A DNA stretch of 64,000 nt, from NCBI GenBank assembly GCA_039679385.1, contig JBDKVB010000138.1, positions 62,001-126,000 of the forward strand, in the 5' to 3' direction. This document shows, piece after piece, positions 24,926 to 30,450 of this stretch. The DNA is from Armatimonadia bacterium. GTDB taxonomy: Bacteria; Armatimonadota; Zipacnadia; Zipacnadales; JABUFB01. Each line of letters opens with the position of its first letter. The first letter of the stretch is position 1. Under the pieces are notes generated by a model. The model did not search any database. It was not told where the DNA came from and was given only the letters and a program-made list of their open reading frames with translations. The translations under genes and the position numbers were made by a program.

Positions 24926-25111
24926 GGTGGGTCCTCCTTCCCGCAACGAAAACGTGCTCGCTTTGCGGCGAACGATTCACTATTCCCCAGAAGTCTGTAC
25001 GGCACCTTCTAGAGGTCAGAGGTGTGTGCAAGGGTCTGGGGCCTTGCGGCAGAAGGTGTGTTTGGGGTACAACGAGGAGCGTTCCTAGTTTTGCGCGCGA
25101 GGAGTAGACCG

Positions 25112-25924
25112 ATGACCGGGCATTGGCTCAGACTCAACCGGCTGTTCACCGAGGGGAAGCGGGCGATCATCGTCGCCGTGGATCACGGGGAGTTTCTCGG
25201 TCCGATCCAGGGAATGGTGGACCTGCCGTCGGCCGTGGGGCCACTGACCACTGCCGATGCGGTGCTGCTGTCGCCCGGGATGATGGGACACTGCGGGAGC
25301 CTGTTCGACCATCGCGGAGCTCCGCTGGCCATGATCCGGCTGGACTGGAACACAGCTCTTTGCGAGCAGTGGGGGTACCAGCGAGCACGGGTCGCCCAGG
25401 TGGTGACGCCCGCGGACGCCCTGGCGATGGGAGGCGATCTGTGTCTGGCGTCGCTGGCTCTGGGTGGCAGTGACGAGGAGCGGGACACGGCCGGAGTGGA
25501 CCAGTTCGCTCGCTTCGCGCGGCTCAAGCAGGAGTGCGGCCTTCCGCTTGTGGGTGAGTACTGCCCGCCGAATGCGGGGCGTCTGAACCCGGAGGACCTG
25601 CACCAGCGGGTTCTGGTCGGTTGCCGCCTGTTAGCGGAGCTCGGAGCCGACGCCATCAAGACGTACTACACCGGCGAGGCCTTCCAGGAAGTGGTCGAGG
25701 CCACGCCGGTGCCGGTGATCACACAGGTTGCGGAGCGTCTGACTACGCCGCTCGATGTGCTCAGTTTCGCTCAGAAGGCTGCAAGCAGTGGAGCCCGCGG
25801 CGTCGTTCTGGGCCGTCCCGTGATGCAGGCCGAGTACCCGGACCTCCTGCTGCGAGCCCTGGCTCGCGTGGTCAAGGAGGACGCAGACCCTGAGGAGGTC
25901 GCCTCCGAGTTGGGTCTTGCGTAG
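25112..25924 (+). CDS. DhnA/LsrF-type class I aldolase
   Basis: 270 residues. AIIVAVDHGEFLGP near the N-terminus (catalytic Asp), VGEYCPPNAGRL and the Schiff-base lysine in GADAIKTYYTGEAFQE identify the DeoC/FbaB-like class I aldolase family. VVLGRPVMQAEYPDLLLRAL closes the phosphate site. Family members cleave fructose-1,6-bisphosphate or related ketose phosphates, or condense in aromatic precursor synthesis. GAGGAG lies seven bases before ATG 25112. A weak promoter-like TTGCGG/TACAAC (25043-25072) precedes it. It is divergent from the split transketolase, so both may serve sugar phosphate interconversion. Confidence 0.85.
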   Translation: MTGHWLRLNRLFTEGKRAIIVAVDHGEFLGPIQGMVDLPSAVGPLTTADAVLLSPGMMGHCGSLFDHRGAPLAMIRLDWNTALCEQWGYQRARVAQVVTPADALAMGGDLCLASLALGGSDEERDTAGVDQFARFARLKQECGLPLVGEYCPPNAGRLNPEDLHQRVLVGCRLLAELGADAIKTYYTGEAFQEVVEATPVPVITQVAERLTTPLDVLSFAQKAASSGARGVVLGRPVMQAEYPDLLLRALARVVKEDADPEEVASELGLA

Positions 25925-25927
25925 GGA

Positions 25928-26626
25928 CTACATGGCGGTGCCCACCTGGACGATGGTGGTACCGATAAACTCGCCGTTGCGGACACGCAGGGCCTGCAGT
26001 GTCCGGGCATTGGGGCCCTGGAACTGCAGCATCAGTCCGCGCCGGTCCATCTGATCGCAGAGGCCCTCGGGGACCTCACGCGAGTCGCAGCGGACGATGA
26101 TCGCATGGTACGGCCCGGCCTCGCTCCAGCCCTGGGTGGTGTTCCCCCAGTGCACCTCCACGTTCCTCGCGCCGGTTTCGCCCAACTGCTGTATCATCGT
26201 CGCGACCTGCATCTTGGAGTTGCACAGTACGCAGACCCGCTGGCACAAACGTGCTGCGACGGCAGCCGGATAGGCGTCCGGCGGGTTGATCATCAGCACC
26301 CTGTGCTTGGGGAAGATCTGGCTTTCCTGCATGGCCAGTCCGACCATCAGCGGCGAGCAGTAGCCGTTGTCGGTGGCAGCGCTCTCCGCGTAGGGGTCGA
26401 TCCCCGCGTCCGCCGGGAGGAAGGCCTGGCGCGGAACCTCTCGCATGGCCTCAAGGACCCGCGGGTCGGTGATGCGACCACTGTGCTCGAGCCGGTCCAC
26501 CATGCGCATACGGGCTCGCAGCATCAGCGCCGACTCATTGTAGGTGCCACGGGAACAGCCGCCGAGTAACGCCAAGATTGCACAGAACACGCAAAGCAAC
26601 ACTACCGCGTACGAAGTGCGCATCAT
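25928..26626 (-). CDS. Lipoprotein homologue of isoaspartyl methyltransferase, apparently without SAM site
   Basis: 232 residues. The signal peptide MMRTSYAVVLLCVFCAILAL ends in a lipobox (LALLGGC), predicting an acylated envelope protein. The mature part aligns in outline with PCMT: ITDPRVLEAMREVPRQAFLP matches TPAVTKALRDTQRHLFVP of the next gene, and QGWSEAGPYHAIIVRCDSRE matches QGWAENAPFDGIMVTCAPED. Motif I, GTGSG in PCMT, is VLMINPPDAYPAAVAA here, so SAM binding seems lost. It may act as a substrate-binding or structural partner. ATG 26626 has GGAGG six bases upstream. It is 48 bases after the true PCMT-like gene and probably cotranscribed. Confidence 0.78.
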   Translation of the reverse strand: MMRTSYAVVLLCVFCAILALLGGCSRGTYNESALMLRARMRMVDRLEHSGRITDPRVLEAMREVPRQAFLPADAGIDPYAESAATDNGYCSPLMVGLAMQESQIFPKHRVLMINPPDAYPAAVAARLCQRVCVLCNSKMQVATMIQQLGETGARNVEVHWGNTTQGWSEAGPYHAIIVRCDSREVPEGLCDQMDRRGLMLQFQGPNARTLQALRVRNGEFIGTTIVQVGTAM

Positions 26627-26674
26627 TTTCCACCTCCCCAAGGGCTCACGCGGTCACCGTGCGTGCGCCCTTGG

Positions 26675-27442
26675 TCAGTTGTGCATCTCTCCCGTCATGG
26701 GTACGAAAAGAACAGGGATGATGGCGGTGCGGCTGACTAGACCGTTGCTCTTGCGCAGGACATACAACTGCTGCTGGTAGGGCTCACCTACCGGGATGAC
26801 CAGGATTCCTCCGTCGCGTAGTTGCTCCACCAGTGGAGTGGGTACATCCTCTGGCGCGCAGGTAACCATGATGCCGTCGAAGGGCGCGTTCTCGGCCCAG
26901 CCCTGGTAGCCGTCGCCACAGCGGACCGTCACGTTCTTGTACCCCAACTCTTTCAGTCGCCGGTCCGCCTGTGTCGCGAGCGGCTCGAGAATCTCGATGG
27001 TGAAGACCTTCTTGCAGAGGCGAGAGAGCACGGCTGCCTGATAGCCCGATCCTGTGCCGATCTCCAGGATCGTCTTCTCCGGTGTCGGCTCGATCAACTC
27101 GGTCATCAGGGCAACCATGTGAGGGGCGGAGATCGTCTGTTCGTAGCCGATGGGCAGCGCTCGGTCCTCATAGGCCACCGACCACAGCTCGGGCGGGACG
27201 AAGAGATGACGCTGGGTGTCTCGCAGGGCCTTGGTGACGGCGGGAGTGTGCAGGAAGCCCCGGGCGCACAACTGCTCCACGAGGCGTTCGCGAGCTGACT
27301 GGAGTTCGTCTGGAGACGGGGGTATGTAGGGACCGGCATCCTGAGCACGGACGCAGGAGAAGAGGGCGGCAGCGACACCTAGTACTGCCACCGCCAGCAG
27401 AGGCCGACCGACCGGTCCAAGCACAGGCCGCAGGCCCTGCAT
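26675..27442 (-). CDS. pcm: Exported protein-L-isoaspartate O-methyltransferase
   Basis: 255 residues, of which the first 35 form a signal peptide or membrane anchor (LLAVAVLGVAAALFSCVRAQ). The PCMT core follows: RHLFVPPELWSVAYEDRALP, IGYEQTISAPHMVALM, motif I LEIGTGSGYQAAVLSRL, and PFDGIMVTCAPEDVPTPL. The enzyme methylates isoaspartyl residues for repair, using SAM. An envelope location is odd because SAM is cytoplasmic; a cytoplasm-facing anchor is possible, and AALFSC could be a lipobox. GAGGGG lies eight bases before ATG 27442. Confidence 0.85.
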   Translation of the reverse strand: MQGLRPVLGPVGRPLLAVAVLGVAAALFSCVRAQDAGPYIPPSPDELQSARERLVEQLCARGFLHTPAVTKALRDTQRHLFVPPELWSVAYEDRALPIGYEQTISAPHMVALMTELIEPTPEKTILEIGTGSGYQAAVLSRLCKKVFTIEILEPLATQADRRLKELGYKNVTVRCGDGYQGWAENAPFDGIMVTCAPEDVPTPLVEQLRDGGILVIPVGEPYQQQLYVLRKSNGLVSRTAIIPVLFVPMTGEMHN

Positions 27443-28465: not shown

Positions 28466-29248
28466 TCAAGCGCCCAGGAGGCTGCAGACCAGCTCCACGT
28501 TGTCCTGCACCATGGTGGGGTTGTCCCCGGTGTACATCCCCAGGTTCACGATATCCGACGGCTTGATGCTCGCGTAAGCATACTCCAGGGCCTCGCGCCA
28601 GGGTCGGCGTCCGGCGCCCATGACCTTGTAGGCGATGCAGGGCTTCTGGATGTGCTGGATGACCTCGACGGCACGAGGTGTGTCGGCGGGATCGAAGCGC
28701 TCTCCCTTGCCGGCATGCACGCTCCCGCAGTTGTAGAAGCAGACCACGTGGAAGTCCGCCGGTACCCCGGCGTCGTAGACCCACCGGTGTGCCTCGGGGA
28801 TGTGGCCGGCCAATCCGGCGAGCATGCCCTTGGCGTGGATCAGGTCGACCAACTGGCGGACGCGGTCCAGGTTGCCTGCCTCATAGAGGGCGTCGATCAC
28901 GCCGCCGTGGATGTAGTAGGCGATGGCACCGTTTGCAGCAGCCTGATTGATGTTGGCCTCGTGAGTCGGCGATTCGCCGCCCATCTGGGCAAACCACTGG
29001 AGCTTGCCGCCCTCGTTTCGGTACTCGCGCAGCATCCGCCAGATGTGGGCGTCGACGCGGAGGCAGCAGGTGTTGATGCCGGCGTCCTCGCACTCGCGTA
29101 GTGTCTGCTTGATGCGGTCGACGGTGTAGTAGTCCAGCATCTCACGGTCGCGCTGCGGGTTCTGATGTGAGAAGCCGCTGAAGGGGTTGCCGCCGAGGGT
29201 CAGGCGGCCGATGGCATGGCTGCCGAAGGGCACGGTAGGGAGTGACAT
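28466..29248 (-). CDS. TIM-barrel-like protein of unknown function
   Basis: 260 residues. I do not recognise a named family. It begins VPFGSHAIGRLTLGGNPFSG, contains REMLDYYTVDRIKQTLRECE, LQWFAQMGGESPTHEANINQ and AIAYYIHGGVIDAL. It ends with PCIAYKVMGAGRRPWREALE and IVNLGMYTGDNPTMVQDNVE. The alternating helices and strands, with GG and H residues at strand ends, look like a TIM barrel, possibly related to aldo/keto reductases or sugar isomerases. ATG 29248 has GGAG seven bases upstream. It has its own good promoter and lies behind the Gfo/Idh gene in the catabolic cluster, so sugar metabolism is a reasonable guess. Confidence 0.7.
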   Translation of the reverse strand: MSLPTVPFGSHAIGRLTLGGNPFSGFSHQNPQRDREMLDYYTVDRIKQTLRECEDAGINTCCLRVDAHIWRMLREYRNEGGKLQWFAQMGGESPTHEANINQAAANGAIAYYIHGGVIDALYEAGNLDRVRQLVDLIHAKGMLAGLAGHIPEAHRWVYDAGVPADFHVVCFYNCGSVHAGKGERFDPADTPRAVEVIQHIQKPCIAYKVMGAGRRPWREALEYAYASIKPSDIVNLGMYTGDNPTMVQDNVELVCSLLGA

Positions 29249-29306
29249 TGCAGTCTCCAGGGCGTCAGGCCGGCGAGGGCTCGACGTAGTATTCGGTAAC
29301 GTGGTT

Positions 29307-29335
29307 ACTTTACTGCCTGCGCCCGCCGAGGTCAA
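29307..29335 (-). promoter_or_regulatory. Sigma70-type promoter for the TIM-barrel-like gene
   Basis: On the minus strand TTGACC (29335-29330), a 17-base spacer and TAAAGT (29312-29307). A start near 29300 gives a leader of about 52 bases before ATG 29248. Confidence 0.65.
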
Positions 29336-29353
29336 CACGGAGGACAGGCGAGA

Positions 29354-29388
29354 CCGACACCGAGAAGCCTCGGGCTCCCCGGTGTCGG
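29354..29388 (-). terminator. Hairpin after the Gfo/Idh gene
   Basis: CCGACACCG and CGGTGTCGG form a perfect 9-bp stem with an inner AGCC/GGCT stem, ten bases past the stop at 29398. There is no T-run, so it may be an mRNA-stabilising hairpin instead of an intrinsic terminator. Confidence 0.45.
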
Positions 29389-29397
29389 CAGAGGGCA

Positions 29398-30450
29398 CTA
29401 GAGAGGCAGGCTTACGCGCGTTCCGGTCCGGGCGCTCTCGTAGGCGCCGAGGATCATCCCGGTGCTGATCTTGGCGTCGCGAGCGCTGACCTGGACCTTG
29501 CCGGCCTTGTACTCGTCGAGGATATTGCGGGTGACATTGGCGATCCGCCAGCCGTGAGAAGCGGGGATCTCGGCCGGAAGGATCTGCCAGCCCTGGTCGC
29601 GCTTCTCGGACTGGAACATCTTGAGCATCGTGGCGCCCGGAGGTGGAGGGGTCCCGGTGCTGGGTCCGTCGCCGTAGTTCTCGAGGATGACGCCCTTGTC
29701 ACCGTAGATCTCGGAGGTGCTCTCGGCGGCCAGGATGACGGAGCTGTTCATGAGGAGGCCCATCTCGCCGTTCGCGAAGCGGTAGATGGCCTCACCGCTG
29801 TCATCGGCGGCGCGATGAGTGAGGATGTTGTCGATCTCAGCCATGACGCTCACCGGAGAGCCCAACATCCAGTAGAGCCAGTCGGAGGCGTGGCTGGCGT
29901 CGTCCATCCACATACCCAGGTTCTGCACCGGGTCGATGTGCCAGGCGGTATCGCCCTGGAAGGTGTCCGGGTTCAGCAGCATGCTGAGGCAGTGACGACG
30001 GCGGACGATGCCGACTCTGCCGACGGCGCCCTCAGACACGAGCTTCTTCATCTGGACATTGACCGGATCGTAGCGCATCTGGAAGGCCATGGAGAACCAG
30101 ACGCCGGCGCGGTCAACGGCCTCGATGATGCGGTCGCAGTCGGCCATAGAGAGGGCCATGGGCTTTTGCAGGATGATGTCCTTGCCGGCGGCAGCGGCTG
30201 CCTCGACAACCTCTGCGTGACGGTTGGTCTCGGCGCCGATGATGCAGAGCTGGACATCGTCGCGGCCAAGGACGTCTTCGATGATGGGCGAGTAGTCGAT
30301 CCCGAAGTTGGCGGCGCGGTTGGTGCCGCGTGACTCGCTGTGGTCCCAGCAGGCCACGAGTTCACAGTCGTCAAAGGTCTTGATGCCGCTTGAGTATGAG
30401 CCTACATGGCCGTGGGCATACCCCAGCACGGCAATCCCGAACTTGGACAT
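29398..30450 (-). CDS. Gfo/Idh/MocA-family oxidoreductase
   Basis: 350 residues. The NAD(P) fold starts FGIAVLGYAHGHVGSYSSG, and the family's Lys-Pro motif is DIILQKPMALSMADCDRII near residue 95. The C-terminal domain has WHIDPVQNLGMWMDDASHAS, where the conserved catalytic H lies. Family members oxidise or reduce sugars, inositols and related polyols. GAGGAG sits nine bases before ATG 30450. It follows the zinc dehydrogenase by 98 bases in the catabolic cluster. The Gly-rich motif (GYAHGHVG) departs from the usual GxGxxG. Confidence 0.85.
   Translation of the reverse strand: MSKFGIAVLGYAHGHVGSYSSGIKTFDDCELVACWDHSESRGTNRAANFGIDYSPIIEDVLGRDDVQLCIIGAETNRHAEVVEAAAAAGKDIILQKPMALSMADCDRIIEAVDRAGVWFSMAFQMRYDPVNVQMKKLVSEGAVGRVGIVRRRHCLSMLLNPDTFQGDTAWHIDPVQNLGMWMDDASHASDWLYWMLGSPVSVMAEIDNILTHRAADDSGEAIYRFANGEMGLLMNSSVILAAESTSEIYGDKGVILENYGDGPSTGTPPPPGATMLKMFQSEKRDQGWQILPAEIPASHGWRIANVTRNILDEYKAGKVQVSARDAKISTGMILGAYESARTGTRVSLPL

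Follow-up and report, generated by a model that had tools for sequence, protein, structure and literature searches.

A predicted exported isoaspartyl methyltransferase and a rare pseudoenzyme-like twin encoded in tandem in Armatimonadota

Introduction

Why would a bacterium encode, side by side and each behind a predicted export leader, one isoaspartyl methyltransferase (PCMT) homologue with all of its motifs intact and another whose SAM motif has been replaced? The question is raised by two genes, hereafter A (upstream) and B (downstream), found in the window, i.e. the whole stretch of 64,000 nucleotides of an Armatimonadota genome analysed here. The original prediction, made from the letters of this DNA, described them as an exported enzyme followed by a lipoprotein pseudoenzyme, and regarded the presence of such proteins in the envelope as unusual.

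Results

Two PCMT homologues in a two-gene unit

Gene B starts 48 bp downstream of A on the same strand. Since the UbiE-type methyltransferase gene upstream of A runs in the opposite direction and the aldolase gene beyond B is convergent, A and B stand alone as a two-gene unit. The features of the locus are as follows.

25022-25924, forward strand: DeoC/LacD-type aldolase gene, a convergent neighbour outside the pair (domain search)
25928-26626, reverse strand: gene B, predicted lipoprotein pseudo-PCMT of 232 residues (ORF, Pfam, A-B alignment, model)
25964-26506, reverse strand: segment of B matching Pfam PCMT, residues 41-221 (Pfam)
26138-26143, reverse strand: Asn-Thr of B, replacing Asp-Gly (alignment)
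26273-26293, reverse strand: MINPPDA of B (in LMINPPDAY), replacing motif I EIGTGSG (alignment)
26351-26368, reverse strand: NGYCSP of B, replacing QTISAP (alignment)
26555-26566, reverse strand: predicted lipobox LGGC of B, Cys24 (PS00013-type pattern)
26638-26674, reverse strand: inverted repeat CCAAGGGC..GCCCTTGG between the stop of A and the ribosome-binding site of B (fold prediction)
26675-27442, reverse strand: gene A, PCMT with intact motifs and predicted export leader, 255 residues (ORF, Pfam, NCBIfam)
26909-26914, reverse strand: Asp-Gly of A contacting SAM, intact (residue roles as given in the available text of PMC11522691)
27044-27064, reverse strand: SAM motif I EIGTGSG of A, intact (alignment)
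27122-27139, reverse strand: QTISAP substrate motif of A, intact (alignment)
27353-27364, reverse strand: lipobox-like LFSC of A (in ALFSC), Cys30 (PS00013-type pattern)

Folded as a 64-nt segment, the intercistronic inverted repeat gives a z-score of -3.4; it has no T run. The hairpin is strong in the window and missing from the other A-B pair that we found, in genome G009 of another family of the same order (z -0.34), and was discarded as a conserved element. A promoter search found none. Elsewhere in the window, positions 28466-29398 of the reverse strand hold an ORF of 310 residues with no Pfam match at E 0.001.

Gene A scores 221.2 bits against Pfam PCMT (cut-off 20.3) and 252.8 bits against the NCBIfam equivalog PRK00312, above its cut-off of 188. 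The GTGSG that it had been said to keep is there, within EIGTGSG, as is QTISAP. With an equivalog score and Thr, Ser, motif I and Asp-Gly all as in a functional isoaspartyl methyltransferase, A has every residue for methylating isoaspartyl sites and is predicted from its sequence to be active. Its leader does not come from a wrong start: ATG 27442 has GAGGGG upstream, and no in-frame ATG, GTG or TTG occurs between codon 18, which is part of the hydrophobic stretch, and codon 55, which already belongs to the PCMT domain.

Gene B, whose best start is ATG 26626 behind GGAGGTGG (TTG 26641 being unlikely), is a true PCMT homologue, and the resemblance is not due to chance. It scores 81.7 bits against Pfam PCMT (PF01135), well above the cut-off of 20.3, over positions 5-193 of the 210 of the profile, and it aligns with A over 196 columns with 32% identity (2e-25). 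The AlphaFold models of A (pLDDT 90.8, pTM 0.84) and B (pLDDT 90.2, pTM 0.83) were built on alignments of PCMT relatives and are not independent of homology. Solved PCMTs rank best in the VIA-align search with the model of B (Z 20-26; Z 24.9 to 25.6 for the first five). The profile, the alignment with A and the structural matches together eliminate the idea that B is unrelated to PCMT, and the original claim that it aligns across the whole fold holds. Pfam gave nothing of weight for B except PCMT, and NCBIfam only PCMT-type methyltransferase models, each below its cut-off (PRK00312, 88.2 vs 188; TIGR00080, 85.7 vs 159.05). B lacks both the equivalog score and the motifs of a functional isoaspartyl methyltransferase: the contact residues are changed from Thr to Gly, Ser to Cys, Asp to Asn and Gly to Thr, and motif I reads MINPPDA, which includes the NPPDA noted at the outset. 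A weaker structural match to B (Z 18.8) is PCMTD1, which we take to be a human ubiquitin-ligase component. Its presence in CRL5 (PDB 9oma) offers a parallel to B, that of a PCMT fold recruited into another machine.

Predicted export and lipid anchoring

The lipobox test combined a PS00013-type pattern with a start codon and a suitably placed basic residue. We call A-nearer the sequences whose phmmer score to A exceeds that to the cytosolic copy of the same genome, a class that includes a few leaderless rows from other taxa. The pattern was found in 18 of the 44 A-nearer ORFs (22 if Pro is allowed) and in none of the 49 cytosolic-type ORFs. Both window proteins match it, A at Cys30 and B at Cys24, and both have the charged start, with Arg before the hydrophobic stretch, and the lipobox Cys of bacterial lipoproteins. 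Gene B had been singled out as the lipoprotein of the pair; because A fits the pattern too, A is probably also one, and both proteins are predicted to be exported and lipid-anchored. The B protein of G009 fails the pattern, the Cys of its lipobox-like LGGC being at -4.

The loss of conserved residues in B

Conserved columns were counted in an alignment of window B, G009 B and 87 other PCMTs; L041, L121 and L122, which are masked or partial, were left out before the tree, and L120 also before the counts. Among the 55 columns with at least 90% conservation in the 87 PCMTs, window B keeps 24 and G009 B 26, whereas none of the 87 keeps fewer than 47. We defined a site set of 12 SAM- or substrate-contact columns, eight of which we assign to these contacts as an assumption of our own. 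The other four, Thr/Ser/Asp/Gly, are named in the available text of PMC11522691. Window B keeps 0/12 of these cofactor and active-site columns vs 24/43 of the remaining conserved ones (Fisher p 0.0005). For G009 B, the values are 3/12 and 23/43, a difference that is not significant (p 0.11). All four of Thr/Ser/Asp/Gly are present in 37/40 A-nearer and 45/47 cytosolic-type rows, vs none of the four in window B and one in G009 B; Glu and the three Gly of motif I occur in 40/40 and 46/47 of these rows. These losses suggest that B is no longer catalytic. The tandem of an enzyme-like and a pseudoenzyme-like PCMT, both with predicted export leaders, is thus borne out.

Substrate residues have also changed in three A-type exported PCMTs from family f6 of the order (L010, L022 and L041). 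In these proteins the SAM motif is kept, but other residues stand in place of the substrate Thr and Ser: Met/Ile in L010 and Leu/Tyr in L022, while L041 reads QVLYAP. Isoaspartate binding may thus have been lost a second time, independently of B.

The spread of A-type copies

PCMT matches were found in 39 of the 41 genomes of this Armatimonadota order, and 30 of the 41 have an A-type copy. A-type and cytosolic-type copies separate in the tree with few exceptions, and the predicted exported A-type copies are a conserved group across the order, with intact motifs. In two other phyla, the best matches to A, which are the best-scoring loci and not a random sample, have a hydrophobic leader in 23/30 and 13/29 loci, the lipobox pattern in 5/30 and 5/29, and both motifs intact in 30/30 and 27/29. 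Exported PCMTs with intact motifs thus seem to be common, and a literature search, thin on subscription papers, found no title or shown abstract on them. Given this spread, the oddity of the locus is B and not the export of A, and the original view, in which export of a PCMT was already surprising, is not supported.

No gene partner of A is common across the order, and neighbours are shared at the family level only. Four f6 genomes have a gene for a Lon-like protease (LonB/LonC domains) next to their exported PCMT (L133:4931-7567, L123:1023-3479, and also in L124 and L041), which suits a role of the exported PCMT in protein quality. In G007, the exported PCMT has a Cpn60 chaperonin gene (L132:7367-9007) as its neighbour, and related genes occur in the examined stretches of G008 and G029. 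Two single cases may be added: L041 (G008) holds a further tandem of two A-type PCMTs, kin to A and not to B and partly unreadable, and L120 (G007:C202), which sits on a long branch, is an A-type PCMT that combines intact motifs with a hydrophobic stretch at the N-terminus and a long linker.

The rarity and origin of B

B-type copies were found by profile search in two of the 41 genomes of the order and two of the 291 Armatimonadota genomes, in two families, and fragmentary genomes may conceal more of them. As the two B proteins themselves served to build the profile, the scores that they reach with it (445 and 455 bits) prove nothing; the next best match in the phylum has 119 bits. No B was found among 395 genomes of a second phylum, that of G293, where the best match (116 bits) is at the level of ordinary PCMTs. 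It had been proposed to look for the pair in other genomes, and in G009 a B with site losses does lie directly downstream of its own A. In G002 and G003, which belong to the family of the window, A and the aldolase gene are immediate neighbours and B is missing.

The two B group together in the tree with a support of 83/87. They are also its longest branches (5.9 and 7.6), and neither alternative is rejected in the AU test, whether window B is placed next to the A of its family (p 0.07) or G009 B next to its own A (p 0.16), so that the grouping may be an artefact. The two proteins share eight rare residues vs 2.7 expected (p 0.005, in a shuffle that ignores relatedness), six of which are in the loops of the old pocket, vs 19 of the 50 columns that are rare in both (p 0.04, with loops delimited after the fact). 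These loops share derived residues such as SREVPE. Of such rare residues, window B has none in common with its own A and G009 B has three, and window B is 26% identical to G009 B and 29% to A. We favour, without regarding it as proven, a single origin in one old, retained pseudoenzyme lineage with losses. A recent origin of B by copying of the A next to it was set aside, as no rare residue is shared, yet the AU test keeps this grouping (p 0.07). The third-position GC of B (0.845) is like that of neighbour genes and its codon-position GC is gene-like; when A was left to decay neutrally to 32% identity, only three of 300 simulated runs remained free of stops. The frame of B is thus intact against the neutral expectation, and constraint may still have been lost recently.

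Discussion

Gene A is like the cytosolic PCMT/PIMT (PF01135; E. coli Pcm, 3lbf) in all motifs and exceeds the NCBIfam cut-off, and B has the same fold by homology and model. In contrast to these enzymes, A and B carry predicted export leaders, and B is without the SAM and isoaspartate residues. A closer parallel is CI-PIMT, a supernumerary subunit of complex I in Paracoccus denitrificans, which is 29% identical to the free PCMT copy of its cell, has lost Thr/Ser/Asp/Gly and shows no cofactor density (PMC11522691, available text). It is like B a PCMT paralogue without any of the four contacts, but it sits on the hydrophilic arm of complex I, whereas B, a predicted lipoprotein, is encoded next to a twin with intact motifs and a predicted export leader. 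The leader and lipobox of B tend to speak against such a place for it. In Rhodopseudomonas palustris, RPA2580, a PCMT paralogue without the substrate residues that is stated to be inactive (PMC11522691), is required for survival in growth arrest (PMC5705917); the accessible portions of both papers do not mention an export leader, a lipobox or a twin in tandem for it. Polypedilum vanderplanki has kept duplicated PIMT genes, most of them inactive in assay (PMC7565475). These are insect proteins with a SAM motif reported present, in contrast to the lost motif I of B, and envelope export is not discussed in the accessible text. Inactive PCMT paralogues are therefore known, and these sources, as far as their text is available, describe none that is an exported lipoprotein and has an active twin, likewise exported, next to it.

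We tentatively favour, at slightly below even chances, the reading that A and B form a two-gene envelope unit in which B is a non-catalytic lipoprotein, most likely protein-binding, that serves A. In this unit, A would be an exported PCMT for envelope proteins, methylating their isoaspartyl sites. B would have been born by duplication of an exported PCMT, would then have lost SAM and isoaspartate binding, and would have been retained as a non-catalytic lipoprotein with its old pocket remodelled. It might be a partner subunit that holds, recruits or tunes A at the membrane or, alternatively, it might bind damaged envelope proteins and feed them to A. In view of the tandem order and the shared leaders, A is the partner to consider first for B, and CI-PIMT, RPA2580 and the Polypedilum PIMTs, as described in the available texts, give precedent for a dead PCMT being retained as a protein-binding module. 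Since B is present in so few genomes, A would work without it in most. Homology, tandem order in two families, predicted leaders, loss of site residues and an open frame can be read from the genes; export, lipid anchoring, the loss of catalysis and the single origin are inferences, and the physical pairing of A and B is our guess. Against this reading stand the rarity of B, the long branches and the AU tests that leave the grouping of the two B in doubt, the losses of G009 B, which are not significantly concentrated in the site, and the identity of window B to G009 B, which is no higher than that to A.

The link with A could also be one of descent only, if B has been repurposed as a structural or adaptor protein of another envelope complex. 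We regard this as rather unlikely. In its favour, CI-PIMT has taken a comparable path, being a bound subunit of complex I with the same four residues lost (PMC11522691, available text); the structural search with B places its chain 8qby_t near the top (Z 25.6, level with ordinary PCMTs), and the divergence of B in the tree far exceeds that of A. Against it, B immediately follows A in both genomes, which suits a link between them, and their unit holds no other gene. That B is a relic, either a duplicate on its way out or one of two independent duplicates decaying in parallel, would fit its rarity, its absence from G002 and G003 and the separate duplications that the AU test does not reject. It seems improbable for a gene with a complete frame, a ribosome-binding site, a lipobox and gene-like codon positions, when so few neutral runs stay open and the two B share rare residues.

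The kept fold of the model and the derived residues common to both pockets, SREVPE among them, could point instead to a different enzyme or a sensor with a remodelled pocket that binds another small molecule, but we recognise no catalytic residue pattern in B and the domain searches return nothing of weight beyond PCMT-type models, which leaves this a quite improbable reading. It would do away with the SAM problem if the leaders were not export signals and both proteins faced the cytoplasm on an N-terminal anchor. This we consider very improbable, given the Arg before the hydrophobic stretch and the lipobox-like Cys in both proteins, the presence of the lipobox pattern among A-nearer ORFs vs its absence from cytosolic-type ones, and the clear lipoprotein-like leaders in other phyla.

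For A to act at the place to which its leader directs it, SAM would have to occur outside the cytoplasm, and we know of no established case of this. A bold extension of our preferred reading, which we think unlikely as a whole, is that several phyla repair isoaspartate outside the cytoplasm by means of a periplasmic or lipid-anchored PCMT, with SAM, or an enzyme already loaded with it, present in the envelope, and that two Armatimonadota families add a pocket-remodelled pseudoenzyme lipoprotein as a subunit that selects or presents aged envelope proteins. The intact motifs in 30/30 and 27/29 loci of two phyla make the question of extracytoplasmic SAM testable in easier species. B itself would be a natural dead twin in which to ask, as with CI-PIMT and RPA2580, what the PCMT fold does without its chemistry.
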